A stretch of 64,000 nt of DNA from a virus, in the IMG/VR virus record IMGVR_UViG_3300027418_000290, positions 1 to 64,000 of that record. One strand, written 5' to 3'. The notes under the pieces were generated by a model. It was not told the DNA's origin, ran no database searches, and saw nothing but the letters and a program-made list of their open reading frames with translations. Position 1 is the first letter of the stretch; every line of letters starts with the position of its first letter. The translations under genes and the position numbers were made by a program. Shown piece after piece: positions 7,446 to 62,430 of the stretch.

Positions 7446-9263
7446 ATGGCTAATTATGACGACGATGCGGTCAATACACGCGTCAAGTTAAATCAGATAT
7501 CTCCATCTATGTGTATGGCGAAGTGGTTGCAAGTGAGTTTGCACTTACCACAGGGTCGTACACATAGTTGTTATCACCCTCCAACACATACCATCCCACT
7601 AGATGAACTACGTGCAAATCCAAACGCACTACATAATACCTCTTTCAAAATGCTTGAACGCAAACAAATGAAAGAAGGCAAAAGACCTGAGGGTTGTCAG
7701 TATTGCTGGAACGTAGAAGACGCACCAAATCCACCTGAAGGCGGCAGATTAAGTGATAGACATTATCGTTCTAGTGAATGGTGGGTACAAGAAGCATGGG
7801 ATGAAGTTGTTAATAACCCTTGGAACCATGACATATCTCCTAGATACGTTGAAGTAAATTTCAACCAAGCGTGTAACTTTAAATGTGCATACTGTTCTCC
7901 CCATTTGTCAACAGCATGGGAAGACGATATTAAACAGCATGGGGCTTTCAAGTTTTCAAATAACACCCGCCACAATGAAATTACAAGTTTAGAGAGAAGT
8001 GGCTTAATGCCGCTAAAACTTTCACAAAAAGAAAATCCTTATATTTCTGCATTTTGGGAATGGTGGCCTACTGTATATCCCAACTTGAAAATATTCCGTA
8101 TGACTGGCGGTGAACCTCTTATGGATAAAAACACATTTAAGGTGTTGGATTACATACGAGAAAACCCAAATCCAGAATTAGAGATATCTCTTACTACAAA
8201 TATGTGCCCACCAGACGATGCGCTGTTTGATAAGTTTATGGACAAAATTAAAAAACTTGAAGAACCTATTATTCCTGAAAAGAGCAACACCCGTGTTGAG
8301 TTTGATAAGAGTATATATTTGAAGCCACCAGTAGAGGGTAAACGTAAATTAGTATTTTACGTACAAGACCCAAAAGATGGTTCTGATTGGAAGACATGGG
8401 AACAGAAAGTTATCTATGAAACACTACAGGGTGTATTTGTGGAATCTATGGTCCCAAATACGAAAACAATAAAGTTTAAGGAAATCGAACAGACTTTCAC
8501 TGCATTAGGTCCATGTGATGACGAAGATGACCATAGTTTTGTGTATGCAGCCGACTATGTTCTGGATAAAGAATATAATGTGTGGGAACATCAATATGAG
8601 AACGTATACGTCAAGCACATCAGTGTTTTCATAAGTCTAGATTCTGTCGGAGAGCAAGCAGAATACATCCGTGATGGTTTAGATTTCGAAAAATTAAAAC
8701 GAAATGTTGACAGACTATTAAACGAAACACAACGTGTTAGTGTTACATTTATCAATACATTTAATATTCTAAGTATTCCTGGGTTGAAAGGTTTTCTAGA
8801 ATATATGTTAGAGTTAAGACGTAAGTTTGGATACCAACATCAATTCGACAACAAACATAGAAAACCCGGACAACGAGTTTGGTTTGACATACCATATTTG
8901 AGATATCCTGACTGGATTACGATACAACTTTGTGACCAAGATATGTTAGATACGATGCAAGAGTATATCGATTTCATGAAACAAAATGTGTTATCTAATG
9001 CTGATTATGGTTTGTCATATCATGGTTTTAAGAACTACGAAGTGTTGAAATTAGAACGAGATTTAGCTTGGGCAAAAACAGGTGATAAGCTCACTGAACA
9101 AGAACTAAGTGATAAACTAGTAAGATTTTACGATTACTTCAACGAATACGATAGACGTAGAAATAAAAACTTTTTAGAAACATTCCCAGAAATGACAGAT
9201 TTCTGGTTAGAAGCAAGAGAAGAACGAGAGATAAGATATGGGAAGAAAATACTGGGAAGGTGA
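7446..9263 (+). CDS. Twitch-type radical SAM enzyme with large internal insertion
   Basis: A 605-residue radical SAM protein. The CNFKCAYC motif puts the three cluster cysteines at 143, 147 and 150, and the SAM-binding GGEP is at 221-224. The N-terminal domain carries the 'AKW ... SC-HPP-H' and 'C-YCW-VED' cysteine/histidine pattern shared with the next gene. Relative to that paralogue it has about 115 extra residues (roughly 270-388) between barrel strands. It ends with a conserved 'F-E-FPEM' tail. It would use a [4Fe-4S] cluster and SAM to make a 5'-deoxyadenosyl radical; the substrate is unknown. It overlaps the next gene by 26 bases. Confidence 0.85.
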   Translation: MANYDDDAVNTRVKLNQISPSMCMAKWLQVSLHLPQGRTHSCYHPPTHTIPLDELRANPNALHNTSFKMLERKQMKEGKRPEGCQYCWNVEDAPNPPEGGRLSDRHYRSSEWWVQEAWDEVVNNPWNHDISPRYVEVNFNQACNFKCAYCSPHLSTAWEDDIKQHGAFKFSNNTRHNEITSLERSGLMPLKLSQKENPYISAFWEWWPTVYPNLKIFRMTGGEPLMDKNTFKVLDYIRENPNPELEISLTTNMCPPDDALFDKFMDKIKKLEEPIIPEKSNTRVEFDKSIYLKPPVEGKRKLVFYVQDPKDGSDWKTWEQKVIYETLQGVFVESMVPNTKTIKFKEIEQTFTALGPCDDEDDHSFVYAADYVLDKEYNVWEHQYENVYVKHISVFISLDSVGEQAEYIRDGLDFEKLKRNVDRLLNETQRVSVTFINTFNILSIPGLKGFLEYMLELRRKFGYQHQFDNKHRKPGQRVWFDIPYLRYPDWITIQLCDQDMLDTMQEYIDFMKQNVLSNADYGLSYHGFKNYEVLKLERDLAWAKTGDKLTEQELSDKLVRFYDYFNEYDRRRNKNFLETFPEMTDFWLEAREEREIRYGKKILGR

Positions 9264-10797
9264 AACCTTTCAACTATTCAAAGAACGTATGATCGATTCC
9301 GTTAGCGAGAGTTTTTGCGCAGCGAAATGGTACAATGCTACGATCTGGTTGGGACATGGGCAGACTGCAAGTTGTCACCACCCACCCGGTCACTGGATTC
9401 CGCTAGATGAATTAAAGGAAAACTTTACTGCTATCCACAACACAAAGCATAAAAAGAAAATGCGTAAGATGATGCAGGAAGGTGATCGACCAGCAGAATG
9501 CGAATACTGTTGGAAAGTTGAAGACATGGGCAGAAATAACATTTCTGACCGCGTGTATAAGACTGAAATCTTTACAGACGAAGATATCATCGCAGCAGGC
9601 GATATGCCTTGGGATGCAGATGTTGAACTTCGTACATTAGAAATTGCGTTTGACCGAGCATGTAACTTTAAATGCTCATATTGTAATCCGGCATTCAGCA
9701 GTGCATGGGTTAAAGATATCAATACATATGGTGCATATCAAAATATTCAGTCCGATGGGCGTGGACACTTTGTTGACACCGCGGAATGGGCAAAACCAAT
9801 AGCAGACAAAGAAGATAACAATCCATATATTCAAGCGTTTTGGAAATGGTGGGAATCAAGTCTATCTGACAACCTTGAAGAAATCCGTATCACTGGCGGC
9901 GAACCCATTATGCATACTGGTACTTGGAAACTGTTTGATTGGTTTGAAAAAAATCCAACACGCGGTAGAAATATGAGATTTGCAATCAACTCTAACTTGA
10001 ATCCAGAGACAAACAAGGTTCTTGATAAGATGATTGAAAAATCTTGGCATATACCTCATTTTGAAATTTATACATCTGCGGAAGCACATGGTAAAGGACA
10101 AGAGTACATACGTGATGGCATGGATTACGAATTCTGGAAATCTAATCTTCACCGTATTATGCGCGAGTCAAATGTAAAGAAAACAAACATGATGATGACT
10201 ATTAACTCATTGTGCCTTGATACTATTACTGACTTTATGGATGATATGTTAGAGTTTAGAAAAGAATATGGCAGAGAACGCGCACCTGTAATGTCTCTAA
10301 ACATTCTGCGTTTCCCATCATTCCAAAGTGCTGCAATTCTACCCGAACACATTAAAACACATTTCAAAAATAAAATTGAAGTTTGGTTTAATCAAGATGG
10401 ATTGCAACAGCAACTTCACGATGGTGAAAAGGCACAAATACAACGTCTTATTGATTATCTTGATGTTGTAAAAACACCACACCGTAATACCGCAGAAACC
10501 CCAAAACTATACAATGACTTTAAGACATTCTTTGCACAGTACGATATTCGTAGAGGGAAAAGTTTTAGAGATTCATTTAGTCCAATTTTTGTTGAATGGT
10601 TTGATAGTATAGAAGCAGATTCCCCTTCCGCAGAAGATATTCTAAGCAAGCGTATCGTTCTTAATAGTACAATATCCGATCACGATCCGGCAACTATGGA
10701 TGAGTATGAAGGTGGTGATGACGCGCATGAACAAAAGAAAACAGTAGGTGGATGGGATACTGAAACTGATTCTTTAGGTGGCGTAGTAGTAGAATAA
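9238..10797 (+). CDS. Twitch-type radical SAM enzyme, paralogue of upstream gene
   Basis: A 519-residue protein with CNFKCSYC (Cys142, 146, 149) and GGEP at 220-223. The N-terminal region repeats the upstream paralogue: CAAKW, SCHHPPGHWIPLDEL, then CEYCWKVED. It lacks the large insertion. The C-terminal 60 residues are acidic and low-complexity (EYEGGDDAHEQ and similar), which the paralogue lacks. I used the ATG at 9238, overlapping the upstream gene; an in-frame ATG at 9289 is an alternative that keeps all motifs. Radical SAM chemistry is certain from the motif; substrate unknown. Confidence 0.85.
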   Translation: MGRKYWEGETFQLFKERMIDSVSESFCAAKWYNATIWLGHGQTASCHHPPGHWIPLDELKENFTAIHNTKHKKKMRKMMQEGDRPAECEYCWKVEDMGRNNISDRVYKTEIFTDEDIIAAGDMPWDADVELRTLEIAFDRACNFKCSYCNPAFSSAWVKDINTYGAYQNIQSDGRGHFVDTAEWAKPIADKEDNNPYIQAFWKWWESSLSDNLEEIRITGGEPIMHTGTWKLFDWFEKNPTRGRNMRFAINSNLNPETNKVLDKMIEKSWHIPHFEIYTSAEAHGKGQEYIRDGMDYEFWKSNLHRIMRESNVKKTNMMMTINSLCLDTITDFMDDMLEFRKEYGRERAPVMSLNILRFPSFQSAAILPEHIKTHFKNKIEVWFNQDGLQQQLHDGEKAQIQRLIDYLDVVKTPHRNTAETPKLYNDFKTFFAQYDIRRGKSFRDSFSPIFVEWFDSIEADSPSAEDILSKRIVLNSTISDHDPATMDEYEGGDDAHEQKKTVGGWDTETDSLGGVVVE

Positions 10798-11427: not shown

Positions 11428-12508
11428 AATACACGCTGGTTCCCGCCCGACAATAATTTTAGATGGTGACAAGTTAATAGTCTCATTCGATACATATGAT
11501 CGCGAACATACCTGCTTAGTTTTACAAGATTTTATAGAAAACAATCGTTCAGACCATTTATATCTCACGATGTTTAATGTCACTGAGGCCTTTCTCAATA
11601 TGGATTCCGGTTTATATTTTAAACGTATAAATGATATAGCTTCAAAGGTAAAATATTCGGAGTTCATCAATTGCAATCTCATGGTAGGAGAACATGCAAG
11701 CTATTCATCGAAGTTTCTGTTAACCGACCCGCTCGTAATTGATAAGTTCACCTGTTATCCATATACATTTCTAAATCGAACAATCAACAACATTACCAGT
11801 ACATTATGTAAATCTCCAGATTATCATAATATCCGACCTTCTAAACATGCAATATGTTACAATGGTAATCCTATACTACCACGTGCAATGATACTGGATG
11901 GATTAGCAGAAATCGGTATGTTGAAAAATTTACATTACAGTTGGATGTTACGCACACGTATAACTGAAAATCTGTTTCAACTATACGATTATTATGTTAA
12001 AAATTTCGATTATAAGACAAAAGTAGTCCTAGATCATGATGACATATCGATTGGTATAAATCAAGATACCGTTGATGATTTTTTATATTTCAATGACAGT
12101 TTAATAGAGATAGGTGCCGAAACTAATCCAGAGCCGTATCAGTTGATCTACACCGAGAAAACTTGGAAGCCAATATTGTTAGGTAAATTTTTTCTTCTTT
12201 ATGCACATGCATGGTATTACGAAAACTTAGAAAAAATGGGGTTTCAACTATATGATGAAGTTTTTGATTATTCATTTGATCAAGAGTTTGATACTAATAA
12301 ACGTCTTAGTATGTATATCGATGAAGTTAAAAGATTATTATCTATACCTATAGAAGAATTACAACAACAGCTAATTGACATTAATCATAAAGTAATATAT
12401 AATAAAGAACTTGCCATCAAACTTAACACCAACACAAACGAATTAGTAAGTAAATATTCGTTTATGTCCCCAAACGTTATGAGGAACTCATTGCATGACA
12501 CTGAATAG
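11393..12508 (+). CDS. TEKT-type putative glycosyltransferase (copy 1)
   Basis: A 371-residue protein. The C-terminal half holds 'YTEKTWKPI-LGKFFLLYAH ... LEKMGFQLYDEVFDYSFD' (about residues 253-300), a signature shared with the genes at 16838 and 37377 in this window. A Glu/Lys-Pro-Ile block, then a 'GF' and an acidic 'D-S-D' box, is typical of a nucleotide-sugar-dependent transferase C-terminal domain, but I cannot assign a numbered GT family. The start is either 11393 or ATG 11405; no clear ribosome binding site decides. The gene overlaps the sulfotransferase and the next radical SAM gene. Confidence 0.5.
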   Translation: MIKTMNIISSTKIHAGSRPTIILDGDKLIVSFDTYDREHTCLVLQDFIENNRSDHLYLTMFNVTEAFLNMDSGLYFKRINDIASKVKYSEFINCNLMVGEHASYSSKFLLTDPLVIDKFTCYPYTFLNRTINNITSTLCKSPDYHNIRPSKHAICYNGNPILPRAMILDGLAEIGMLKNLHYSWMLRTRITENLFQLYDYYVKNFDYKTKVVLDHDDISIGINQDTVDDFLYFNDSLIEIGAETNPEPYQLIYTEKTWKPILLGKFFLLYAHAWYYENLEKMGFQLYDEVFDYSFDQEFDTNKRLSMYIDEVKRLLSIPIEELQQQLIDINHKVIYNKELAIKLNTNTNELVSKYSFMSPNVMRNSLHDTE

Positions 12509-13913
12509 AAAAATACCAATTTGGAAAAACGACGGTAGTTGTTCTTCTGATAGTCCAAATAAGACATTTTGTATGGCACCGTGGACTCATACATATATAT
12601 CTCCACAGGGTGAGCGGCGCATGTGCTGTGCGAGCAGGGAACAACACCAATTCCAAAAGCAATACATAGACGCCTCGAATGATGAAAAGTATGGTGAAGT
12701 CACAGAAAGTAAAACTGCTGCCGATGATTTTAATCCTCTCACTCTTGAGGAACATTGGAACTCTCCATACATGAGAGACATACGTAAGAAACTGATGGCG
12801 GGTGAAACTATACCACAATGTGATGTATGCAATGATGATATTTTGAGCCTTAGTTCGTATCGCAAATGGTTCACTGGCGTACTGTTCAAAGACAAGATAC
12901 AACAGGCATTTGATAGTACCGATGATGATGGGTACACTACCATGCCAACAATATCTTTTGATTATCGTTTTTCTAATTTATGCAACTTTAAGTGTCGCAT
13001 GTGCGGTGAACTTCTTAGTTCAAGCTGGGAAGCAGAAAAGAAAAAACACAATATGTGGAGTCCAGAGAATCAACCATTCATGCAGCATGATGTGAAAAGA
13101 AAAATGAATGCATTTCAAGTTAATGTTGTTGAACCTGAATTCAGAGCCGCAGTTGATGCCGGTATAGTAGAAGAAATTTATTGGGTCGGCGGCGAACCGT
13201 TAATGTATGATATACATTGGGAAACTCTGGAAAAAATGGTACAGAATGGATCTGCAAAGAATTGCTATTTGCGATACAATTCCAACTTGTCTCGCGTAAC
13301 GTACAAAGATAAAAATTTATATGACTATCTTCCACAATTTAAAAACTGGATGATGTGCGCAAGTATCGACGGTACAGGTAAGATTGTAGAATTCATTCGT
13401 AGTGGAATTGTATGGAAAGAATGGTTAGAAAACTTTAAGCAAGGTGTTGAACTTCCTAATGGCAAAGAACGTATGATACTAGACCTGACAATTACTGGTC
13501 CTGGTATGTTTGCACTAAAAGATTTGTTTGATCTATCACAAGAACTTGGAGTTCGGATAGAAACAAAGATGATGTTTGCCTTTCACCCAGATATTGTATT
13601 TTCTCCGTTTGCTTGGCCAAAAGAAATACTACATCGTATTATAGATGAAAATCTCGCATACATGGAACCACGTGCAACTAATCGTCAGATGACACTTATA
13701 AATACGCTTAAAGAAATGAAAAAGCGACAAACACATATGGAGCAATGGCCAGATACATGGCTTCAAGAAAGTAGAAACGGTAGAAGTTTTCAAGCACATC
13801 TTAGTGAAATACGCCAAGATAAACTTACAGGCATACCAACACTTGAAGAAATATATAAAGAACATGACACCGAACTTTATGAATGGTGGATGCGATATAA
13901 CGAACATAACTGA
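12495..13913 (+). CDS. Twitch-type radical SAM enzyme
   Basis: A 472-residue protein. CNFKCRMC places cluster cysteines at 163, 167 and 170; GGEP is at 232-235. An N-terminal 'FCMAPWTHTYISPQGERRMCC' block and a later C-VCN-D pair supply additional cysteines, the usual layout of the twitch-type family repeated through this window. The barrel core ends with 'SIDGTGKIVEFIRSG', the typical substrate-side strand. An upstream GAGG and the ATG at 12495 give a 14-base overlap with the previous gene. It pairs with the SGNH hydrolase-like gene directly downstream. Substrate unknown. Confidence 0.85.
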   Translation: MTLNRKIPIWKNDGSCSSDSPNKTFCMAPWTHTYISPQGERRMCCASREQHQFQKQYIDASNDEKYGEVTESKTAADDFNPLTLEEHWNSPYMRDIRKKLMAGETIPQCDVCNDDILSLSSYRKWFTGVLFKDKIQQAFDSTDDDGYTTMPTISFDYRFSNLCNFKCRMCGELLSSSWEAEKKKHNMWSPENQPFMQHDVKRKMNAFQVNVVEPEFRAAVDAGIVEEIYWVGGEPLMYDIHWETLEKMVQNGSAKNCYLRYNSNLSRVTYKDKNLYDYLPQFKNWMMCASIDGTGKIVEFIRSGIVWKEWLENFKQGVELPNGKERMILDLTITGPGMFALKDLFDLSQELGVRIETKMMFAFHPDIVFSPFAWPKEILHRIIDENLAYMEPRATNRQMTLINTLKEMKKRQTHMEQWPDTWLQESRNGRSFQAHLSEIRQDKLTGIPTLEEIYKEHDTELYEWWMRYNEHN

Positions 13914-13921: not shown

Positions 13922-14773
13922 ATGGAAGAATGGCGTAAAAATATAGGAGCGGATGATGAATATTTTTTAAATTCATGTCCGGTTGACACTTATGATAACC
14001 CAAATTTGGGATCGGAAAATAGAAGTATACGTGTTCGCTGGTATCCATCCGATAGCAAAGACAACTATATAGAATCTGGAAATGCATATACAATCGATAG
14101 TGTAGATTATGATTTAAATAAACATGGGTTTCGGTGTGACGAGTTCGATGACATACGTGATAGTAAAAATAAAAAACTGATTGTGTTCGGATGCAGTAAT
14201 ACTTTTGGTATAGGCTTACCTGAACATCATATTTGGCCATATGAAGTAAAAAGATTACTTGAAAAAAAATACAACGAGAAGATCGATTTAATAAATCTTG
14301 CTATGCCAGGTACTGGTTCGGACGATACAGTGCGCGTAATTAGTATGTTGGGTGACAGCTTTCATCCTAATTTTGTATGCTGCTTTACCCCACCTGTGTT
14401 TAGAAAAACTTATACTGACCATAGCGGTAAGATATTTAATTATTTGCTATCTAATCAATATAACAAAAATTATCATGACTCGGATTGGAAACGAGTAAAT
14501 TCTATCGGAGAAGCAATGGTGGATATATCTCCGCAATCTTTTTATTACGGTCAATATGTTGCAGAAAGTTTAGTTCGCACCTATGCAAAATTAAATAATG
14601 CCACCCATAAAATAATAACAACTGCACATTACTTGGATGATATGATTGCTACATATGACATAGATAAAAATGAAGGCCCATGGAAATCTAAAGCAAGAGA
14701 TTCTATGCACTACGGTAGACACTTTCATAAGATGTTGGCAATTAAATTTATAGAAGGTTTGTTTAATGAGTGA
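13922..14773 (+). CDS. SGNH hydrolase-like protein (copy 1)
   Basis: A 283-residue protein with SGNH/GDSL hallmarks: IVFGCSNTFGIG with the candidate nucleophile Ser92, a later glycine/asparagine block (NLAMPGTGSDD), and a C-terminal DSMH (Asp260, His263) as the possible catalytic Asp/His. These enzymes are esterases or acyl transferases; in glycan loci they often remove or add O-acetyl groups. It is preceded by a GAGG ribosome binding site and overlaps the next radical SAM gene by 8 bases. No signal peptide, so cytoplasmic. Activity is inferred. Confidence 0.65.
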   Translation: MEEWRKNIGADDEYFLNSCPVDTYDNPNLGSENRSIRVRWYPSDSKDNYIESGNAYTIDSVDYDLNKHGFRCDEFDDIRDSKNKKLIVFGCSNTFGIGLPEHHIWPYEVKRLLEKKYNEKIDLINLAMPGTGSDDTVRVISMLGDSFHPNFVCCFTPPVFRKTYTDHSGKIFNYLLSNQYNKNYHDSDWKRVNSIGEAMVDISPQSFYYGQYVAESLVRTYAKLNNATHKIITTAHYLDDMIATYDIDKNEGPWKSKARDSMHYGRHFHKMLAIKFIEGLFNE

Positions 14774-18025: not shown

Positions 18026-18401
18026 AAAACTATCACCTGACGTATTCGAGGACCATCGCGGAGTTATTCTTAGCTTTCCGCTTGATGTGAATGATTCACC
18101 TGTGGTCGAATACAACCTAATGATAACATTAAAAGGCGATGAGCGCGGTTATCACTATCATCCACATTTTGATGAGTACATGATAGTTGTTGATGGGGAA
18201 TGCTTATTCAAAGAATTTTCATCAGATGGTGATCACAAAGAAATGATAATGCGTGAAGGTGACAGCATTAAAATACCGACCGGCACTGCACATACATTTA
18301 CTGCATTAACTGATTTTAAATTTGTTAGTCTACTAACTAAGCGTTGGGATGACAGCGTTCCGCCAATTGTTAAAGTTAACAATAACGGAGAACCGTTATG
18401 A
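18015..18401 (+). CDS. Cupin protein, sugar isomerase/epimerase-like
   Basis: A 128-residue single-cupin protein. The first cupin motif reads RGYHYHPHFDEY, with metal ligands His47, His49 and Glu54 and a nearby His51; the second is around PTGTAHTF. Size and pattern fit small sugar cupins such as WxcM-like/FdtA-like isomerases or relatives of dTDP-4-dehydrorhamnose 3,5-epimerase. It heads the sugar-nucleotide module, sits between a glycosyltransferase-like gene and an unknown gene, and shares an ATGA overlap with the latter. Substrate unknown. Confidence 0.7.
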   Translation: MKSKKLSPDVFEDHRGVILSFPLDVNDSPVVEYNLMITLKGDERGYHYHPHFDEYMIVVDGECLFKEFSSDGDHKEMIMREGDSIKIPTGTAHTFTALTDFKFVSLLTKRWDDSVPPIVKVNNNGEPL

Positions 18402-33467: not shown

Positions 33468-33479
33468 TATTTATAAATA
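33468..33479. promoter_or_regulatory. Palindromic bidirectional late promoter
   Basis: TATTTATAAATA reads as TATAAATA on both strands: plus 33472-33479 and minus 33475-33468. On the plus strand the box is 5 bases from the ATG at 33485; on the minus strand it is 5 bases from the ATG at 33462. Two perfect late boxes thus overlap as a palindrome and drive divergent genes that share the same leaderless spacing. Confidence 0.75.
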
Positions 33480-33484
33480 TGGTT

Positions 33485-49804: not shown

Positions 49805-49807
49805 AAT

Positions 49808-51906: not shown

Positions 51907-51934
51907 AGTGCAGATATAATAAAGGCGAATATTA

Positions 51935-54225: not shown

Positions 54226-54233
54226 AATAAATA
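54226..54233 (+). promoter_or_regulatory. T4-type late promoter, AATAAATA variant
   Basis: AATAAATA followed by CGAAT, 24 bases before the ATG at 54258, with AAAGGC between. It starts at the stop codon of the PP-loop gene. Confidence 0.4.
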
Positions 54234-54257
54234 CGAATATAATTCTAAAGGCATACC

Positions 54258-55106
54258 ATGAGTGACAGAACATACCGAATAGTAACTGAAATAAAAAATA
54301 ACGAAGATTTTATAAAAATTAATTCTGCGTTTGATTCTAAGTACAATACACAAACGTATTATGCAGAATTGACCCTTATGGAAATCTGGGACAATTTCAT
54401 GGTAAAAAATCATATAGATAATATATGGTGCGGCGATACTCATAATATGTTTGTCAATTTTTTAATCGATAAAAAAGTTGAGAGAATATTTAAGGATAAA
54501 AACATCACTAGAATTAGGTTATCAGACCCTGACTTAGACGAAGATGATGTGCGGAAACTATATGCATTGTACTTGTTGAAAATGGATTTGATTGGAGGGG
54601 GTACTATTCATGATCCGATTTGTATCTCGGCATTCCCAAATGGTTCGCACCCAATACATCCCGGAACGTCGAGAATGCTACTGGCAGCAGAAGTAGATCA
54701 GAGGGTTCCAGTCATATTAACAAATTACAACGACACTCTAAATTACGATTGCGCTGACAAATTAATACCGATAGAACAAATGTCTTTTGATTTTGAAGAT
54801 AAAGGTTTTATATTTGTGGAAGACTACACTGACGATCCAAACCATCCAAAAGGGGATGCGTATTTTTCTGCGGCAAAGACACCAGTTGAAAATAATATAT
54901 CGGTTAATTACAAGGAAATAATAAACGTTTCAAATGATTATCAAATGTATAATCATCCAAAAACACATGCTAAAAAGGACATAGAGTTTGTATTCAAGAG
55001 AAAACGACTTTACATAGATGGTATGGTAGTTGCTGAATTTAGAGACGTTGGACCATATCATCGATGGTTTGTTACGATGCAAGATCAGAGGCTAATAGAA
55101 TTATAA
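54258..55106 (+). CDS. Unknown protein with HPGTSR block
   Basis: A 282-residue protein. A central 'DPICISAFPNGSHPIHPGTSRMLLAAEV' shape with HPGTSR is reminiscent of ParB/Sulfiredoxin-like nucleotide-binding proteins, but I do not see a full motif set. The C-terminal half is beta-rich (IEFVFKRKRLYIDGMVVAEF). It lies between a PP-loop ATPase and a radical SAM gene, with a TAATG overlap into the latter. It could supply an accessory activity for either. Function unknown. Confidence 0.5.
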   Translation: MSDRTYRIVTEIKNNEDFIKINSAFDSKYNTQTYYAELTLMEIWDNFMVKNHIDNIWCGDTHNMFVNFLIDKKVERIFKDKNITRIRLSDPDLDEDDVRKLYALYLLKMDLIGGGTIHDPICISAFPNGSHPIHPGTSRMLLAAEVDQRVPVILTNYNDTLNYDCADKLIPIEQMSFDFEDKGFIFVEDYTDDPNHPKGDAYFSAAKTPVENNISVNYKEIINVSNDYQMYNHPKTHAKKDIEFVFKRKRLYIDGMVVAEFRDVGPYHRWFVTMQDQRLIEL

Positions 55107-56191
55107 TGTCAATAATGAATAGAATTGATAAAATAGAACTTGAGATAACTAGCGATTGTAATGCTCTGTGTCCCGGGTGCGCTAGAACGCAACATTTGGA
55201 TAAAATAACAGTGCAAGATTTTGTTCTTGAAGATTTGAAGCGTATATTACCTACAAGAGAATATATTGATGGGAAGATATTCAAATTCTGTGGTGTTCTG
55301 GGTGATCCTGCTGCAAACGTAGAATGTCTTCCAATGGTAAAATATCTAGTGGAGAATGGAGGTTGGTGCCAGTTGAGTACAAATGGTGGAATTCAACCTG
55401 CTGCTTGGTGGAGAGAGTTGGGTGAACTGTCAGCTAGAACAAATAGTGTTGACGTTTCATTTTGTATTGATGGCCACGAAGAAACAAACCACATCTATCG
55501 TGTTGGTACAAAATTTAGTACAATAGATAGAAACATTCAGGCATATAGTGACGGTGGTAACGGTATTGCATCTGCGACTTGGATTTATATTGTTTTTGAT
55601 CACAACGAACATGAACTAGATAAAGCGAGAGAACACGCAGAAAGACTTGGATTCAAGTTTGCAACTCGTACAGGTATGCGCAACAGCTATCACAACTGGG
55701 TTTCTGTCACTAAAAAGAAAGATAAAGAAACCAAGAAGATTGTAGAGGAAGTTAAGACCATTACAACAACTGGTGCGAAGGAACACTCAAAGAAAAAAGA
55801 AGTTGAAAAGATTGATCAATTCATTAAAGCCTACAGTAAAGGTAAAGAGATAGATCAAGAAAAGAAACTAGAAATGATTAAGAGTATCACCTGCAAGATG
55901 ATACACGAAGCAGAGATATTCATTGCAGCAGATCAAACAGTATGGCCTTGCTGTTTCTTACATGATAGCGCAGTAAAAAATCAAGATGCAATTAACGATA
56001 AACTTGCACAGTTTGGTGATAACTGGAATAGTCTAAAGCATCATACACTTGAAGAAATACTGTCCCACGTTTGGTTTAGACAATTGATAAGACTAAGTTG
56101 GGATCCAGAACATGAAATGCATTTGAAACGTTGCGTAAGAAGTTGTGCATCTAATAAAGCATATCAAAACGAAATAAATTATGAATCTTGA
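55106..56191 (+). CDS. Radical SAM/SPASM-like enzyme
   Basis: A 361-residue protein with CNALCPGC (Cys18, 22, 25). 'FCGVLGDPAANVE' is the equivalent of its paralogue's GNFGDP block. C-terminal cysteines (SITCKMIHE, WPCCFLHD, RCVRSCASN) are SPASM-like. A charged lysine-rich loop lies around residues 205-250 (KKKDKETKK). I placed the start at the ATG overlapping the upstream stop (TAATG), not an earlier in-frame GTG/ATG extension. Its stop overlaps the -35 of the next promoter. Substrate unknown. Confidence 0.8.
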   Translation: MSIMNRIDKIELEITSDCNALCPGCARTQHLDKITVQDFVLEDLKRILPTREYIDGKIFKFCGVLGDPAANVECLPMVKYLVENGGWCQLSTNGGIQPAAWWRELGELSARTNSVDVSFCIDGHEETNHIYRVGTKFSTIDRNIQAYSDGGNGIASATWIYIVFDHNEHELDKAREHAERLGFKFATRTGMRNSYHNWVSVTKKKDKETKKIVEEVKTITTTGAKEHSKKKEVEKIDQFIKAYSKGKEIDQEKKLEMIKSITCKMIHEAEIFIAADQTVWPCCFLHDSAVKNQDAINDKLAQFGDNWNSLKHHTLEEILSHVWFRQLIRLSWDPEHEMHLKRCVRSCASNKAYQNEINYES

Positions 56192-56216
56192 CATTTCAAG
56201 AACAATCGCGTATAAT
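56188..56216 (+). promoter_or_regulatory. Consensus sigma70-like promoter
   Basis: TTGACA (56188-56193), a 17-base spacer and TATAAT (56211-56216): perfect -35 and -10 hexamers. The -35 overlaps the stop codon of the upstream gene. This is the strongest host-type promoter in the window and decides the start of the next gene at 56239. Confidence 0.85.
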
Positions 56217-56238
56217 AGAGACTAAAGAGAGATTATTA

Positions 56239-57657
56239 ATGGCAAATGAATCAATACCATGTTTCTATAGTTTTCATGGTCTAAACTATAAAAACGGATA
56301 TGTAACCACATGTCCGACTCAAACAGACCAATTCTATCTCATTGAAGGTAGAGAAAACCTACCATCTAATATATTCAATTCTCCAGGTTTCAGATTGCAT
56401 CGCAAAGAAATGGTTGCAGGACAATGGTCTGAAGGTTGCCATTTGTGTGAAGAAAATGAACGTTGCAATCTACGTTCCATGCGACATGATTTCACTGCGG
56501 GTCAATGTGATCCAAAACAGTATACAGTGTTTGAAGGTATTCCAACAGACATGTACAACTATGAAACAGGCGAAATGGATTTTGCTGGATTGCGACATGT
56601 TGAAATACGTTTTAATAATAGTTGCAACATGGCGTGTTTACATTGCGACCAAGTATACTCTAGTGGTTGGGAAACGAAATTAAAATCTTACGAACCAACT
56701 GAACTAGATCATAAGCACGGTCTGCATCAGATAACTGGTCTACGCCACACTGACCGACAAGGTAACAAACTACCAAGAATTGATTTAAAAATGGATGAAG
56801 TCGAAATGATCATTCGTGATCTAAATGAAAACTTCCCAAATATTATGAAGATTGATTTCTCTGGTGGCGAAGTACTAAAACAAAAGCAATTTTTCCTTGC
56901 ACTTGATCTACTTGCTGAACACCCTAATGCAAAGAATATGGAAATATTCTTCTATACAAACTTTAACGCGGACTTCGATCCAGTTTCACTTTCGGAAAAG
57001 CTATCTAAATTTAGAAATCTGTCATTGAACATTTCAGTTGATGCTGGTAGAAATATGTATTCATATTTCAGAGACGGGTCTTGGGATAAACTTGTAGAAA
57101 ATTTAAACAAGTTTATGTCAGTACACAAGAAACCATCGAATATAAAGACTATAATTACAACATCGATTTATCAAGTGTTAGGAATTGTAGATGTGTTTCA
57201 ATCTCTAATGACCCTTGATGTTGATATTATCGACTGGGCGCCAGTGCAATCACCTAGACAATTAAATCCAGCGTTAATAACTTTACACCATAGAGATTAT
57301 ATTGTTGCAGAGTTTGATAAGGTAAAGAAACTTATCTATGAAAACAGGTCCCGCAGGAACAATGAAATAAAACAAGGTAAAAAACTGAGAGGCTTTTTCT
57401 ACAGCGGTGACAAACCAAGTTACGATGAATTATCCCATTCTTTAGATCGTTCCCTTAAAGAAATGTCACAGTACGTATTATCGGGTGTAATTCAAGATGA
57501 AGCAAATTGGGAAGCATTTTTACACTATGCAGGTACTGTAGATGGAATATTCAAAAAAGATTTTAACCAATCTGCATTTAAAGACTTTAGATTAATAAAG
57601 ACGCCAGAAGGCAATCAGTTACAGCGTTTAACAAACGGACCAGAGACACAGGAGTAA
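56239..57657 (+). CDS. Radical SAM enzyme (GGEV variant)
   Basis: A 472-residue protein with CNMACLHC (Cys129, 133, 136) and GGEV from residue 209 (GGEP in most others). N-terminal 'CFYSFHGLNYKNGYVTTC' and 'C-LCEENERC' keep the cysteine pattern but diverge from FCxxPW. 'SVDAGRNMYSYFRDG' is the substrate-side strand. I used ATG 56239, because the frame upstream to 56188 lies inside the consensus promoter. It is separated from the second PP-loop gene by three bases, so they are coupled. Substrate unknown. Confidence 0.8.
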   Translation: MANESIPCFYSFHGLNYKNGYVTTCPTQTDQFYLIEGRENLPSNIFNSPGFRLHRKEMVAGQWSEGCHLCEENERCNLRSMRHDFTAGQCDPKQYTVFEGIPTDMYNYETGEMDFAGLRHVEIRFNNSCNMACLHCDQVYSSGWETKLKSYEPTELDHKHGLHQITGLRHTDRQGNKLPRIDLKMDEVEMIIRDLNENFPNIMKIDFSGGEVLKQKQFFLALDLLAEHPNAKNMEIFFYTNFNADFDPVSLSEKLSKFRNLSLNISVDAGRNMYSYFRDGSWDKLVENLNKFMSVHKKPSNIKTIITTSIYQVLGIVDVFQSLMTLDVDIIDWAPVQSPRQLNPALITLHHRDYIVAEFDKVKKLIYENRSRRNNEIKQGKKLRGFFYSGDKPSYDELSHSLDRSLKEMSQYVLSGVIQDEANWEAFLHYAGTVDGIFKKDFNQSAFKDFRLIKTPEGNQLQRLTNGPETQE

Positions 57658-57660
57658 ATC

Positions 57661-58668
57661 ATGGGTAAAATTAGCCTAGACAAAATTAATGCACTATACG
57701 AAAAGTTCCCATATACATTGGGAGATGACACATCGCATTCACGTGTTGTCATTGAAAATATTATTCAAGATGAATACGATACGCTTATGAATTCAAAAGA
57801 TGAAATTATGCAGGGCGACATGCGACAGAATTTAGCAATGACACAGTTTCATATGACACAAAAGTTCAAAGAGCATCTTTACAGTGTTGGATTGAAAACA
57901 CACATTGTAGACGGTCTCGCGATACCTATTAACCCATCATGGAGACGTGTCGGTCTTGACCTTTCGGGTGGAGCAGATAGTGCTGCAATGGCTCTTGTGT
58001 TGTGTAAGATAATTGAAGAAAACAATTATGACATTAAAATTGAAATTATAACATTTATGCGTTGTTGGGAGACACGCCCATGGCAGTTTGACATTGCATT
58101 GCGTGTATATAATGAGTTGAAAGCTCGATTCCCAAATATTATTGGTGAACGACACCTAACATTTATTCCGCCGCAGATTGAACATGGTGCAATCGGTCCA
58201 TTGACACATCCGTCACTGCAAGGTTCATCAGGTGATCAAGTAATCGTATACACATACAACAGATTTATGGCGCACAATTTAAAACTTGATGCAGTATATA
58301 ATGCAACAACAAAGAACCCAACAGTTGACACCCCCACCGAAGATCGTATGAAAACCCGCGATGTCAACGAAGAAGATATAGAAATTAATCAGCTTGCGTA
58401 TGTATCCGACAATGGTGTTAACTGGGCTTTAGAACCATTGCGTCTAGTTGAAAAAGACTGGGTATTACAACAGTACCTAAACAACAACGAAATCGCGTTG
58501 TTTAACGCAACAAGAAGTTGTGAAGGTGATTGCAATCATCCCAATCTAATGGGTATGGATGCCAAGTGGTATCAAATGCACGGTAACCCAGACAACGTGC
58601 CCGAATGCGGTGATTGTTTCTGGTGTCAAGAACGCAATTGGGCAAAGCAACAGTTAGGAATTTCGTAA
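57661..58668 (+). CDS. PP-loop ATPase, QueC-like C-terminal cysteines (copy 2)
   Basis: A 335-residue protein. PP-loop SGGADSA (102-108). C-terminal RSCEGDCNHP (Cys287, 291), then ECGDCFWC (Cys316, 319, 322). It is a paralogue of the gene at 53365, with a longer N-terminus and middle. GGAG ribosome binding site before the ATG. It is placed between two radical SAM genes. The likely chemistry is adenylation of an acid followed by attack of a nitrogen or sulfur nucleophile. Substrate unknown; not enough is present to call it QueC. Confidence 0.7.
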   Translation: MGKISLDKINALYEKFPYTLGDDTSHSRVVIENIIQDEYDTLMNSKDEIMQGDMRQNLAMTQFHMTQKFKEHLYSVGLKTHIVDGLAIPINPSWRRVGLDLSGGADSAAMALVLCKIIEENNYDIKIEIITFMRCWETRPWQFDIALRVYNELKARFPNIIGERHLTFIPPQIEHGAIGPLTHPSLQGSSGDQVIVYTYNRFMAHNLKLDAVYNATTKNPTVDTPTEDRMKTRDVNEEDIEINQLAYVSDNGVNWALEPLRLVEKDWVLQQYLNNNEIALFNATRSCEGDCNHPNLMGMDAKWYQMHGNPDNVPECGDCFWCQERNWAKQQLGIS

Positions 58669-58671
58669 TAG

Positions 58672-59991
58672 ATGTCTAAGACTTTTTGTCCTATTCCTTG
58701 GATGTTTATGGCAGCACGTTCTAACGGAGATGTTAGAGTGTGCTGTCAAGCCAATGTAACAAAGAATAAAGGTGTTATCAGAAAACCGGATGGAACAGCA
58801 TATAATGCTGGTAGAGACGATTTAGTTGAGTCTCGCAATGCTGAAATGATGAAGGCAATGCGAGTAAACATGCTAAACGGAATCTGGAGTGAAGAATGTG
58901 GACGTTGCAGAAGTGAAGAAGAAAACGGTTTAGACTCACGCAGAAAATACGAAATAGACAAGAAGATGTATTCGTTTGAACGTGCAGTAAATGAAACTGC
59001 GGAAGATGGTACAATTGATGTTGACAAAACAGAAATCATGTTCTACGATTTGCGCTTCGGTAATTTCTGTAATCTAAAGTGTCGCATGTGTGGTCCAACT
59101 GATAGTGACTCTTGGTACGACGATTACATGAAACTAACAGGAACTGATTCATTTTGGGAAACAAGTGGACCAGTTAAGATTTATCCTAAAGGTAATAAGC
59201 TAGTAGCAGATGGTTACGACTGGCCTAACTATGAACCTTTCTGGGAATTCTTGGAAAAGAATGCAAAGAATATCAAACACGTATATTTTGCAGGCGGTGA
59301 ACCAATGTTAATTGAGCGTCACTATGATTTTCTTGAACGTTGTGTTGATCAAGGTGTTGCAAAAAACATTGTTATAGAGTATAATACAAATATGAGTACT
59401 CTACCAACACGCGTAACGGAATTATGGAAGAACTTTAAAATGGTTCAGATAGGTGCAAGTGTTGATGGTATGGGACCTGTTCTAGAATATCAACGTAATC
59501 CAGCAAAATGGGATAAGACGCTTCGAAATCTAAAGACTGTAGATGGTTTGCCAATGAATATCATGTCTTGGTTGGCTGTTACTGTTACAGCATATAATGT
59601 TAATCATCTTATTGACTTTATGAAATGGAAATTACAAGAGAGTGAATTCAAGCGTATAAGCTCAACAAAGAAACGTCCTATAATGACGCACCATGTAGCG
59701 CATCACCCAAAGCATCTAAATATACGTGTTCTACCCGACAAGATGAAATCTGAACTTACACAGAAGTATGAAGATTTTGTTGTCTGGGTTGAAGAACAGG
59801 GATTCCCAGAATATGTAATTGAGGCTGCCAAACACGCACGTGATAGCATATGTAGTTATATGAATAGCGATTCATATCACGCCGATCATTGGGATGAGTT
59901 TGTAGACTATACTAATAAATTAGATAAAATAAGAAACGAAAGTTTGATTGAAGTCGAACCTATGTTTAAGGAATATATAAATGAGTTTTGA
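58672..59991 (+). CDS. Twitch-type radical SAM enzyme
   Basis: A 439-residue protein with CNLKCRMC (Cys133, 137, 140) and GGEP from residue 208. N-terminal 'FCPIPWMFMAARSNGDVRVCC' and 'C-RCRSEE' blocks match the twitch family. 'SVDGMGPVLEYQRNP' is the substrate-side strand. It follows the second PP-loop gene after three bases and overlaps the next radical SAM gene by 11. Substrate unknown. Confidence 0.85.
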   Translation: MSKTFCPIPWMFMAARSNGDVRVCCQANVTKNKGVIRKPDGTAYNAGRDDLVESRNAEMMKAMRVNMLNGIWSEECGRCRSEEENGLDSRRKYEIDKKMYSFERAVNETAEDGTIDVDKTEIMFYDLRFGNFCNLKCRMCGPTDSDSWYDDYMKLTGTDSFWETSGPVKIYPKGNKLVADGYDWPNYEPFWEFLEKNAKNIKHVYFAGGEPMLIERHYDFLERCVDQGVAKNIVIEYNTNMSTLPTRVTELWKNFKMVQIGASVDGMGPVLEYQRNPAKWDKTLRNLKTVDGLPMNIMSWLAVTVTAYNVNHLIDFMKWKLQESEFKRISSTKKRPIMTHHVAHHPKHLNIRVLPDKMKSELTQKYEDFVVWVEEQGFPEYVIEAAKHARDSICSYMNSDSYHADHWDEFVDYTNKLDKIRNESLIEVEPMFKEYINEF

Positions 59992-61252
59992 TACAGTTGA
60001 CCTATTAACTGGCGATATCTTTCAGGTATCATGGGACCTTGGGCGCAGATGCAACTACGACTGTAGTTATTGCCCAGTACACAGACACGACAATTTTAGT
60101 CCACATGCAACATTGCAAGAGTTGAAGAACAGTACAGACTTCTTGTTCAAGTACATGGACACCTATCTAGAACATAGAACACTAAAGGGTGCAAGTATTA
60201 GCTTCACCGGTGGTGAACCTACTGTAAACCCTAACTTTATTCCATTCATTGAATATCTTAAAAAAGCATATGCAGAACAATATGCAGATCGTTGGGATTC
60301 CTCATTTGCTTTAACAAGCAACGGTGCAATGAGTAAGAAGATGGCTAATGCTGTTATCGAACATTTCCATCACATCACTGTTAGCTATCATGCAGAAAGT
60401 GATGACAAGCTAAAGAAGCAAGTGCGTGATCGTATTCTACAGTTCCATGAAGCAATGCATAGCAATCCTGAAGGCTTCTTCTCAGTGTCGGTAAACGTTA
60501 TGTTTCACGCACAATACTTTGATGAATGTGTTGACCTTTGCAGATTCCTAGAGAAGCACAGCGTCAAATATGTTCCTCGTGTTATTGGCGAAGAACCAGA
60601 AAGTCCAAGCGATCAAGCACACCGTTATAATGATGCACAAATCCAATGGATGAAAGATTACTGGAATGACAAGAACGCTGCATTGAACGATCCTACACCA
60701 AAAGATGTACAGATTGAATCACAACATGCAGTGACACAAGTTAATACTGAAGGTAAGTCAGAACCAAAGAAACTTGCTATGACTATTGGTCGTCCTTGCT
60801 GCGGATCACGCGAAATGTGTCTATCTAGTCAAGGTGATACTCGTAAGAGTACATTCGTTAATTTCAGAAACTTCAAGGGTTGGCATTGTTCTGTTAACTG
60901 GTTTTTCCTACACCTTGAACAACAGACTGATAGTGTATACCATCACCAAACGTGTCAAGCTAAATTTGATCAAACTAGAGGTCGTTTAGGTAAGATTAGT
61001 GAAGGTGATAAGATTATAGATAAGTTAAAAGAACAACTTGCAGCAAAAGAAATGCCAACTGTTATCTGCCCAAAGCAAACATGCGGTTGTGGTCTTTGCG
61101 CACCAAAGAGTGCATTTAAAGAAAAGTATTTTGAAACACTAGATCGTCATATTGTAGATATGTCAATCTTTGATAACAGTAAGAACGAAGTGAGTAAAGT
61201 TACTCCACTAATTCCCGGCGTAAACTTTGAAATGGATAGCGATATTCTATGA
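59981..61252 (+). CDS. Radical SAM enzyme with C-terminal cysteine cluster
   Basis: A 423-residue protein with CNYDCSYC (Cys24, 28, 31) and GGEP from residue 77. A second cysteine group is in the middle (PCCGSREMC, Cys273, 274, 280) and a third near the C-terminus (CPKQTCGCGLC, Cys363, 368, 370, 373), likely auxiliary clusters. It is a paralogue of the next gene; both share the SVSW/QVSWDLG-R-CNY start. It overlaps both neighbours (11 and 4 bases). Substrate unknown. Confidence 0.8.
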   Translation: MSFDTVDLLTGDIFQVSWDLGRRCNYDCSYCPVHRHDNFSPHATLQELKNSTDFLFKYMDTYLEHRTLKGASISFTGGEPTVNPNFIPFIEYLKKAYAEQYADRWDSSFALTSNGAMSKKMANAVIEHFHHITVSYHAESDDKLKKQVRDRILQFHEAMHSNPEGFFSVSVNVMFHAQYFDECVDLCRFLEKHSVKYVPRVIGEEPESPSDQAHRYNDAQIQWMKDYWNDKNAALNDPTPKDVQIESQHAVTQVNTEGKSEPKKLAMTIGRPCCGSREMCLSSQGDTRKSTFVNFRNFKGWHCSVNWFFLHLEQQTDSVYHHQTCQAKFDQTRGRLGKISEGDKIIDKLKEQLAAKEMPTVICPKQTCGCGLCAPKSAFKEKYFETLDRHIVDMSIFDNSKNEVSKVTPLIPGVNFEMDSDIL

Positions 61253-62430
61253 CAAAAGAAATTCAAAAAGATGCAAACTACTGGTCACAATATGATTTCA
61301 CTGAAATTCCATATCATGACTTAGTTAAAGTAGGACAGCGTACACTTTTATATAGAGATTTGTTTTCGGTGTCATGGTTGCTAGGTCGTTTCTGTAACTA
61401 CAAGTGTTCTTATTGTTGGCCTTATGCTCGTTCTGATCGTAAAGACCATCGCCCAACAGAACTATGTTTAGCGACAATTGATGAAATAAAGAGGCAAGCC
61501 CGTGACAATGGTTTCAATAGTTTTCACTTTAGTCTTTCTGGGGGTGAGCCTACGTTTCACCCAGGATACCTTGACATTCTTAGACACCTTGCTGATGATG
61601 TTGGCAATACTAACTATACTTCTGTACATATGACAACAAACATGTCACGTAATTTAAAGTGGCATCAGGAATATTGTGATACAGTTGCAGCATTTCACCG
61701 TGCAAGTATCACTGCGTCATATCATAGCGAATATGCGAAGAAAGATGAATTTGCAGATAAACTTCTATTCTGTATGGAACACGATGTTCAAGTGACAATC
61801 AATATGGTTCTTGTTCCTGAATGGTTTGATCGTGACTGGGAGAACGCAATGTACTTCCACAATCGTGGTATCAACGTTACACTAAAGCCACAGTCTGATC
61901 CCACTGCATCATTCGTGGTTAAAGGTTATACAGACGAACAACTTGCTATCATGCGCAATGGTATGCCGCAACGCGCATATACTGATGAAATTCAAAAAGA
62001 AACTGGGGTGAAAGTTGTAAGACCTAAACCACACAAAAGCCTATGGACGATGGATGCAGAAAACGGTGACGACAAAAATGTTCCACCGATTATGCAAGTT
62101 GAGTTTGAGGATTCGACTGGTAAGAAATGGTATATGGATCAAGCAGAACGCTTCAATGCCTTTAACTTCAACAAGTTCAAAGGTTGGGAGTGTACAAGTG
62201 GGTTTAAGGGTATTGTTATTCGTGAACCAGATGGAACAATCAAACGTTCATATAGTTGTTCTGACCGACCACTTGGTTTCGTTGAGGGTGGGTTCAGACT
62301 TTTCGACTCGCCAAGACCATGTATCTCAGATAGTTGTGTATCAAGTGCAGACAGTAAGATACCAAAACGGGCACCGGGCGCGCAAGTGCCAATCTATCCC
62401 GGAGATCAAAGTTTTAAGTTCGGAATATAA
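61249..62430 (+). CDS. Radical SAM enzyme with C-terminal cysteine cluster
   Basis: A 393-residue protein with CNYKCSYC (Cys49, 53, 56) and GGEP from residue 98. Later cysteines (WECTSGF, SCSDRPLG, CISDSCVSS) suggest extra iron-sulfur clusters. It is paralogous to the upstream gene (VSWLLGRFCNYKCSYC against VSWDLGRRCNYDCSYC). It is the last gene of the plus-strand run and ends six bases before a strong terminator. Substrate unknown. Confidence 0.8.
   Translation: MTKEIQKDANYWSQYDFTEIPYHDLVKVGQRTLLYRDLFSVSWLLGRFCNYKCSYCWPYARSDRKDHRPTELCLATIDEIKRQARDNGFNSFHFSLSGGEPTFHPGYLDILRHLADDVGNTNYTSVHMTTNMSRNLKWHQEYCDTVAAFHRASITASYHSEYAKKDEFADKLLFCMEHDVQVTINMVLVPEWFDRDWENAMYFHNRGINVTLKPQSDPTASFVVKGYTDEQLAIMRNGMPQRAYTDEIQKETGVKVVRPKPHKSLWTMDAENGDDKNVPPIMQVEFEDSTGKKWYMDQAERFNAFNFNKFKGWECTSGFKGIVIREPDGTIKRSYSCSDRPLGFVEGGFRLFDSPRPCISDSCVSSADSKIPKRAPGAQVPIYPGDQSFKFGI

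Follow-up and report, generated by a model that had tools for sequence, protein, structure and literature searches.

Phages that carry many radical S-adenosylmethionine (SAM) enzymes (rSAMs) have been noted since 2010, and the published passages that deal with them mention neither a recurring core nor a partner enzyme. Campylobacter phages CP220 and CPt10 encode 11 and 12 rSAM proteins, respectively, which are partly clustered and were judged highly unusual (PMC2853527). The rSAMs of TARA_ERS488813_N000010 were discussed as Fe-S proteins (PMC5332604), and the host-recognition cluster of pelagimyophages contains rSAM cassettes (PMC7029224). Here we describe a stretch of 64,000 nucleotides (positions 1 to 64,000 of IMG/VR virus record IMGVR_UViG_3300027418_000290; the window in what follows), in which a first-pass annotation had pointed out 17 rSAM genes between 7446 and 62430. 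The window contains a two-part rSAM island, with a recurring core (46-62.4 kb) on the right and an accessory arm (7.4-41 kb) on the left, and we consider this anatomy practically certain. The core includes two QueC-like proteins (53365 and 57661; genes are named by their start positions). Searches of the open-access literature found no report of this core, of the QueC-like group in phages, or of the pairing between that group and rSAMs.

The 68,644-base record has 17 PF04055 matches, every one inside the window, with E-values from 7.5e-17 to 2.5e-4. The CX3CX2C motif is present in all 17 proteins, as the first-pass annotation had stated. No internal stop codon was found in any of the 17 genes, so the disruption that would have counted against the annotation is absent and pseudogenes are ruled out. 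The gene starts match listed open reading frames (ORFs), except for upstream alternatives at 27210/27261, 33479/33485, 55064/55106, and 56188/56239. Fourteen of the 17 reach the Pfam cut-off of PF04055, one of them only together with its neighbours in frame; the three below it are 51935, 55064, and 9238, and of these 51935 and 9238 pass the cut-off (170 bits) of the twitch rSAM model NF033640 (N_Twi_rSAM). The 55064 protein passes neither, but has E-values of 9.5e-6 with PF04055 and 4.5e-9 to 2.7e-8 with rSAM NCBIfam models; by these values, its CX3CX2C motif and its similarity to 50803, it is a predicted rSAM. The NF033640 cut-off is passed by 12 proteins (191.7 to 423.7 bits) and missed by 33479, 50803, 55064, 59981, and 61249 (33.2 to 65.7 bits). 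As claimed before, SPASM-like C-terminal cysteines occur in 33479, 50803, and 55064, and a different cysteine layout in 59981 and 61249. The N-terminal FCxxPW...CC block that most copies were said to share is looser than that: xCxxPW in its strict form is found in 6/17, CC inside the first 60 residues in 9/17, and the second cysteine is substituted in 7446, 9238, and 56188. Viperin-type defence was ruled out, with matches that are weak and confined to the rSAM core.

Seven of the rSAM genes lie in the core, which runs on the plus strand like every feature below unless stated otherwise. They are 50803..51900 (SPASM-like C-terminus), 51935..53365 (NF033640 423.7 bits), 55064..56191 (SPASM-like, a paralog of 50803), 56188..57657 (191.7 bits, often adjoining a QueC-like gene in relatives), 58672..59991 (369.7 bits), and the paralogs 59981..61252 and 61249..62430 with the other cysteine layout. 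The QueC-fold PP-loop protein 53365..54225, for which a ligase activity may be supposed, carries SGGADS and SCE..CGHCFFC, and its paralog 57661..58668 is a second QueC-like PP-loop protein. Upstream of the rSAM genes are 49808..50803, with a class I methyltransferase-like C-terminal domain, its paralog 48836..49804, a 938-residue protein (46045..48861), and a NodU-type carbamoyltransferase (44497..46005) with 33% identity to a carbamoyltransferase of Pelagibacter phage Mosig EXVC030M. From 44497 to 61249 all genes are on the same strand, and neighbours overlap or are no more than 39 bp apart.

To describe relatives of the core, virus loci were picked with 51935 (80 of 218 kept) or with 61249 (best 80 of 229), 10 contigs being common to both sets; gene calls in all relative loci were mechanical. 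The order of genes in relatives starts with tail-side genes (2766, 3799, 4170, 5008, and 6465 types), followed by a second gene of the 6465/46045 type, 49808, and 50803; it continues, often with 55064, then with 51935, a QueC-like gene, and the 56188, 58672, 59981, and 61249 types. Gaps and extra paralogs vary between phages. In the 77 relative loci picked with 51935, the median identity over hits covering more than 60% was 82.5% for 51935 (77 hits), 70% for 61249 (50), 61% for 59981 (42), and 53% for both 50803 (75) and 55064 (73). Relatives of 61249 in the best 80 virus loci picked with it, after removal of this phage's own copies, are 67-86% identical. We also scored gene presence, at set identity limits per gene, in the 39 loci whose flanks extend 10 kb in either direction. 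A relative of 50803 with at least 45% identity is present in 37 of them and one of 49808 in 30; 55064, 59981, and 61249 are represented in 25 each, 57661 in 21, 56188 in 19, 58672 in 16, 53365 in 13, and 46045 in 7. The recurrence of this order, together with identities of about 82% for 51935 and 70% for 61249 over many contigs, shows that at least the core is not random cargo.

Relatives of the island are rich in rSAMs as well. PF04055 matched 5-22 times in each of 26 records taken from the 51935-picked set and 1-20 times in each of 14 from the 61249-picked set, so that five or more rSAMs were found in 39 of the 40 records (three of which belong to this phage, and one rSAM in each is given by the selection). 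NF033640 matches were found in 27/27 bacterial genomes searched, 1 to 32 in each and some under the cut-off; these genomes were drawn from 79 bacterial loci, all chosen for a prior NF033640 copy. Relatives carrying few rSAMs and no shared neighbours, which would have refuted the earlier proposal, are therefore not the rule: they carry many, with shared neighbours. The substantial multi-enzyme pathway that had been proposed has good support from the recurring order and the strong conservation of core enzymes, and only the word private has to be dropped, since most of the records picked hold five or more rSAMs and bacterial genomes also carry several NF033640 copies. In the annotated-phage library, weak relatives of 51935 occur in 2 records, of 50803 in 4, and of 28648 in 20, and none of 87, 46045, or 57661 was found there.

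The one record with a single PF04055 match, G039, has a 61249 ortholog (74% identity; L240:9971-11098) which is flanked by kinase-like and nitroreductase-like genes, with ClpX-like and ClpS-like genes nearby, as judged by eye. The gene content of G039 argues against a need for 61249 to act jointly with the other island genes. Contig L144 of the assembly 'Rickettsiales bacterium MED657' contains tail-side genes with relatives of 50803 (53%) and 51935 (63%), and its contig L164 contains tail-side genes. The L144 contig equals an IMG/VR contig in length (46,940), so this assembly probably includes a phage binned into a bacterial genome.

The first-pass annotation overlooked the QueC-fold proteins 53365 and 57661, together with FolE, QueD, QueE, and TGT-like genes elsewhere in the genome. 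Both proteins combine an SGGxDS loop with an SCE...CxxCxxC set at the C-terminus. Foldseek gave QueC 2pg3 as the best match (E 1e-7) of the AlphaFold2 model of 53365 (pLDDT 85, 21 sequences). With VIA, the model gave Z 14.0 to QueC 3bl5 (rmsd 3.9, 183 aligned) and 12.5, 12.3, and 12.1 to the PP-loop enzymes QatC, Cap9, and LarE. The modelled structure places 53365 firmly in the QueC fold class, and the subfamily is not firm with a lead of about 2 Z over other PP-loop enzymes. In this phage nothing matched PF06508 (QueC) at E 0.1, and 53365 matched phrog_1550 with E 0.0085. Across the related records the PF06508 cut-off was reached in only 1/20, with E 1.1e-6 across 74 residues; canonical QueC was thus not seen in this phage or in the related records searched with PF06508. 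Accessory QueC-like relatives do match PF06508 (5 of 139 sampled neighbours, best 1.1e-7) and phrog_1550 (best 5.3e-9).

We collected 85 distinct QueC-like sequences (from 128 genes, including contigs present twice) by the SGGxDS loop and the C-terminal cysteine set, and compared them with motifs of the QueC family given in PMC13329287. SGGxDS is present in 85/85, as the set was selected on it. The canonical QueC motifs YxQxHxxE, YxDC (our pattern for YPDC), and C(x)8CxxCxxC were found in none and VPxRN in one, but a PFx4K-like stretch (F, L, Y, or W at the second place) is present in 80/85 and CE..CxxCxxC with loose spacing in 84/85. The Cap9 motifs Y/FxQ(x)5E and YxDC were each found in 0/85, and the QatC zinc pattern C(x)19CGxCxxRR also in 0/85. 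By these motifs and the modelled fold, the proteins look like members of the QueC superfamily that are not canonical QueC, Cap9, QatC, or WbpG.

QueC-like genes are linked to rSAM genes. An rSAM gene is adjacent to 122/128 QueC-like genes (120/128 under a stricter rule), compared to 292/999 other genes in the same loci; inside the span from the first to the last rSAM gene, 108/112 QueC-like and 173/220 other genes adjoin one. We repeated the count in loci picked by QueC-like proteins (best 80 of at least 410, with a seed alignment from loci near rSAMs). An rSAM was present in 78/78 of these loci and adjacent to the QueC-like gene in 64/78, as compared to 218/452 other genes. Twenty of the 80 contigs overlapped earlier loci; the remaining 60, of which 59 had a gene call, gave a further set of virus loci with an rSAM in 59/59, adjacent in 45/59 vs. 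183/414 other genes. In bacterial NF033640 loci, 0/77 had a QueC-like gene by motif. We also considered methionine-glycine N-termini as marks of Cap9-like substrates; they were seen in 5/59 proteins near QueC-like genes vs. 3/398 far from them, but a second start is available in these cases, among which are rSAM and SGNH-like genes. Start choice is the best explanation, and the idea is not supported.

The left arm contains the other ten rSAM genes and the sugar-nucleotide genes. Its rSAM genes are 7446..9263 (NF033640 302.8 bits), 9238..10797 (306.1 bits), 12495..13913 (320.6 bits), 14766..16010 (367.8 bits), 24058..25185 (247.3 bits), 25953..27146 (337 bits), 27261..28520 (252.1 bits), 28648..29853 (383.9 bits), 33479..34393 (SPASM-like and under the cut-off) and, on the minus strand, 39357..40556 (238.2 bits), relatives of which (about 45-55% identity) sit in the core stretch of other phages. 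The sugar-type genes at 18015..24049 include a cupin, DegT (202 residues), a C-methyltransferase, TylF, AhpC/TSA, a UDP-sugar dehydrogenase (264 residues), and an epimerase. They are followed by an NTP_transf_3-type nucleotidyltransferase (31481..32527), a second UDP-sugar dehydrogenase (36148..37377) and, on the minus strand, a cytidylyltransferase-like gene with a mannose-6-phosphate isomerase-type cupin (38597..39364). In loci such as L021, L045, and L069 the tail-side genes are followed by the core with no left-arm gene between them, whereas about 39 kb lies between 6465 and 46045 in the window. This gene order suggests that the left arm was inserted or arose by local expansion. Proteins which look by eye like SGNH hydrolases (13922, 16000, 25178, 35464, and 42704) are interspersed with the rSAM genes; among them only 16000 has a weak GDSL match, below the cut-off, and 42704 a DUF6071 match.

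The origin of the rSAMs was approached with a tree of 142 NF033640-type proteins (12 from the window, 90 of 176 virus and 40 of 72 bacterial representatives) built by a quick method. The 12495 protein grouped with copies in L093 and L119, 9238 with L093 and L092, and 14766 with L093, each with support of 100, and 7446 grouped with L093 with support of 88. Identity to the bacterial copies is 46% for 12495 (L093 and L119) and up to 52% for 9238 (L093). In the tree, the four left-arm rSAMs 7446, 9238, 12495, and 14766 are thus nearest to bacterial chromosomal copies. The 51935, 58672, 56188, 39357, and 27261 proteins cluster with phage copies, 28648 lies amid bacterial copies (support 85), and 24058 forms a long branch. 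The source assemblies are titled Bacteriovoracaceae (L093 and L119) and Oligoflexia (L092), both groups of the Bdellovibrionota. In the Bacteriovoracaceae assembly, L093:6031-18027 has eight NF033640-type rSAM genes in 12 kb with two other ORFs among them, flanked by genes which look chromosomal by eye.

The 17-rSAM stretch is part of a 342,181-base contig, that is, of a phage of about 342 kb. The window sequence is 99.995% identical across 21.4 kb to contigs of 47,636, 245,963, and 342,181 bases. The ends of the longest contig map to window positions 28471-30470 and 30345-32343. An exact-match test for terminal repeats in this contig gave 0, and BLAST afterwards gave an overlap of 126 bp, from the second base on. 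Because its ends overlap, the contig is probably a complete, circularly permuted genome. A T4 Gp23-type major capsid gene (PF07068) is present in this phage's contigs G002 and G003 (E ~1e-81), and across the records examined PF07068 was matched in 15/21 and exceeded its cut-off in 14/21; by its predicted capsid gene the phage is T4-like. The capsid gene, the nearly identical longer contigs, and the end overlap rule out bacterial contamination or a mis-called virus. On the opposite strand after the island, at 62464-63866, there are genes which look by eye like thymidylate synthase and dihydrofolate reductase, and a 62464 homolog is likewise downstream of the core in 6 relative loci.

For target and mechanism we favour, with considerable reservation, a modular tailoring pathway in which an unusual group is made and amide-linked, most likely on a virion or host-surface glycoconjugate. 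The rSAMs would use radical chemistry to make a small building block or to oxidise it. Enzymes of the QueC type activate a carboxylate with ATP and then add ammonia or an amine (PMC13279940); by analogy with QueC and Cap9, the QueC-like proteins may use ATP in this way on a carboxylate, giving an amide (or nitrile). The methyl-, carbamoyl-, and glycosyltransferase-like proteins could finish and attach the product, the likeliest target being a glycoconjugate on the virion or on the surface of the infected cell. This target is suggested because the core follows tail-side genes in relatives and the phage has its own sugar-nucleotide genes, and also because of the stretch near the tail fibre gene of Mosig, in which rSAM-motif, carbamoyltransferase, methyltransferase, and sugar aminotransferase genes lie about 8-13 kb from the putative tail fibre gene. 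The profile A7, built from 11 of the 12 window NF033640 rSAMs and 51935 orthologs, agrees with this reading in that it matched the rSAM core of cytosylglucuronate decarboxylase (1.5e-6) and, with its N-terminal block, the auxiliary domain of BtrN (E 0.001). The two UDP-sugar dehydrogenases could supply sugar acids, and the phage SAM synthetase (best PDB match E 1.8e-103) may help feed the rSAMs.

The AlphaFold model of 49808 has a class I methyltransferase fold in its C-terminal half and is poor in its N-terminal half (mean pLDDT 69.6); its profile had no match among solved structures by sequence. In relatives of 49808 the methyltransferase-like domain is preceded by N-terminal tandem repeats (type DLRKAV.E.NLHSIFRL), the number of which differs between phages. 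The 46045 protein has a weak glycosyltransferase-2 match (E 0.0026, below the cut-off), appears by eye to be built from repeated domains, and is 35% identical in its C-terminal part to 6465 (6465..7442), a single-domain relative of the kind that precedes the core in relatives. Two related proteins, 4170 and 5008 (4170..5889), have counterparts between the tail-side genes and the core in relatives, and a 5008 homolog is present in 23/77 relative loci.

Glycan chemistry had already been suggested from nearby sugar genes, and this suggestion holds only in part. The left arm, with its UDP-sugar dehydrogenases, epimerase, DegT, C-methyltransferase, TylF, and nucleotidyltransferases, agrees with it, but the surroundings of the core in relatives give it little support. 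A number of observations weigh against a glycoconjugate. We sampled 139 of 401 non-redundant neighbours in relatives (140 at random, one dropped) and found 13 Asp/Arg hydroxylases, 5 QueC, 3 desaturases, 3 nitroreductases, and no glycosyltransferase family at E 1e-4. A census of 85 of 123 neighbours of bacterial NF033640 genes (24 hand-picked of 79 loci, with poor or antisense-looking ORFs and two genomes dropped) had 2/85 glycosyltransferase 2 and no glycan specificity; with families shown for 25/85, a clear theme was not found. For 21 of the 24 non-rSAM genes of the left arm, no homolog was found in 160 virus loci reaching only 10 kb from core genes. WbpG of the QueC superfamily serves O-antigen synthesis (PMC13329287), and the CxxC(x)6CxC pattern of such N-sugar amidotransferases (PF06508 cluster 5) was found in 0/85 QueC-like sequences. 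Nor does the presence of SAM synthetase follow the rSAM count, since the gene occurs in G039 (one rSAM) and is missing from G028, G030, and G031 (14-19). The best solved-structure match of the rSAM profile A7 is a peptide enzyme, the FolE, QueE, and TGT-like genes of rSAM-island phages point elsewhere than glycan, and no substrate of the island was identified.

These last genes lead to the reading that survives next best, which we regard as possible but less probable than a glycoconjugate: the island tailors a 7-deazaguanine. FolE, QueD, and QueE would make 7-carboxy-7-deazaguanine, the QueC-like proteins, taking the place of canonical QueC, would join ammonia or rSAM-made amines to it, and a TGT/DpdA-like protein would insert the base in phage DNA, or the base would be joined to protein as by Cap9. 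This phage encodes FolE, QueD, QueE (QueE-like phrog_2076, E 1.4e-51; PDB 6nhl, E 3.3e-4), SAM synthetase, and a 520-residue protein with DSGGYQ. In related records QueE was found in 17/20, the TGT-like gene in 17/20, FolE in 15/19, QueD in 10/19, and SAM synthetase in 10/20; these counts include two records from this phage, and others, G030/G032 and G027/G040 for example, look like near copies by coordinates and scores. That no canonical QueC was seen fits this reading, as do the QueC fold and the PFx4K-like and CE..CxxCxxC patterns frequent among the QueC-like proteins. G030 has QueE and QueD immediately on either side of an rSAM that shows an N-terminal SPASM match, although this rSAM is distant from the window rSAMs (best 23%, to 33479). 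In the cultured Vibrio phage QD01 (L281:5992-9655) two rSAMs similar to 28648 (21%) are one gene away from a QueC-like gene; the locus has a phosphoribosyltransferase-like gene and the QueC-like gene is divergent (phrog_1550, E 4.9e-43). CP220 has QueD near an rSAM cluster, and the Campylobacter phages of its group were reported to be rich in 2'-deoxy-7-amido-7-deazaguanosine (dADG) (PMC6884629).

The motif counts of the QueC-like proteins, in which the canonical patterns are missing from all or all but one sequence, argue against this reading. QueE, FolE, and the TGT-like gene are outside the core, about 15-22 kb from it, and QueD is far away. The QueC-like genes and rSAMs outnumber the needs of one base, and the islands of G007 and G041 (15 and 10 rSAMs) have none of FolE, QueD, QueE, and TGT-like, though these records may be incomplete. 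DSGG(F/Y)Q is present in 11/11 TGT-like relatives taken and in this phage's protein, and the TGT-like label is based on this DSGGFQ-type motif of the TGT family; the TGT-like profile matched no solved structure at E 1, and the protein matched no Pfam family over its cut-off and no PHROG. A bolder form, which we think rather unlikely, is that the logic of QueE and QueC became a module copied many times: an rSAM would supply a carboxylate or amine, which a dedicated ligase of the QueC fold would couple to a partner. Given the phage's FolE, QueD, QueE, and TGT-like protein, the outcome would be either phage DNA with conjugated 7-deazaguanines of a new class or a conjugate of nucleobase and protein. 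If true, the maker would here be a virus and not a defence system.

Slightly less probable still is a modification of peptide or protein, in which rSAMs and Asp/Arg hydroxylases would alter side chains, either in a virion protein or in a peptide of the ribosomal type, with the QueC-like proteins capping N-termini or carboxylates. The A7 profile had SkfB as its best solved structure (1.5e-9). Many models of maturases of ribosomally synthesized and post-translationally modified peptides match window rSAMs weakly, far under their cut-offs; the hydroxylases are the commonest sampled neighbours, and the core lies after tail-side genes. Among ORFs of at least 90 residues no gene for a precursor peptide was recognised (smaller ones were not searched systematically), and the methionine-glycine starts, best put down to start choice, give no help. 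It is improbable that the genes are hypervariable cargo with no single shared pathway, each phage gathering rSAM cassettes that alter its host differently, because, for all the left-arm genes without homologs in relative loci, the range of 1 to 22 PF04055 matches, the solitary 61249 ortholog of G039, the cassette exchange described for Campylobacter phages (PMC2853527), and the pelagimyophage cassettes (PMC7029224), the order of the core recurs and 51935 and 61249 are conserved across many contigs.

Whichever target applies, the island has a core that can be named: two highly conserved rSAMs (51935 and 61249) and a phage QueC-fold group tied to rSAMs. It gives concrete enzymes to express and products to seek. 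It may also bear on viral 'queC' and 'ahbD' genes in virome surveys, since some window rSAMs match the ahbD model weakly; one such survey states that viral ahbD needs further investigation (PMC9301287).

The described systems resemble the island in different parts. The NCBIfam family NF033640, whose model name and listing carry no function, includes the 12 window rSAMs that pass its cut-off, but the other five are outside it, and 51935, 58672, and 56188 stand apart from most sampled bacterial copies. CP220, like the window, has genes noted as nucleotide-diphospho-sugar transferases, and its QueD is about 6 kb from the rSAM cluster; unlike the window, CP220 and CPt10 have a putative amidinotransferase in the cluster, and the similarity to window 50803 is weak (21%). 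The T4-like TARA_ERS488813_N000010 (183 kb) is likewise rich in rSAMs, with 12 genes (PMC5332604). Pelagibacter phage Mosig EXVC030M shares rSAM-motif genes, a carbamoyltransferase, a methyltransferase, a sugar aminotransferase, and Asp/Arg hydroxylases in the vicinity of a putative tail fibre gene, but two rSAM-motif genes were found among the genes checked, and the QueC-like pattern was absent in the 16 of 25 annotated genes of the stretch that were checked. The QueC superfamily (QueC, QatC, Cap9, and WbpG), also treated in PMC11996544, shares with the phage QueC-like proteins its fold class, the SGGxDS loop, and the C-terminal cysteine set, and the phage proteins often have a PFx4K-like stretch of the kind described for Cap9 (PMC13329287); the phage proteins differ in being without YxQxHxxE, YxDC, and the C(x)8 spacing. 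According to a 2026 survey of PF06508, linkage to queD and queE (PF04055) is unseen in its major clusters except that of canonical QueC (PMC13329287). Unlike the major non-canonical PF06508 clusters described there, the phage QueC-like proteins are linked to rSAMs.

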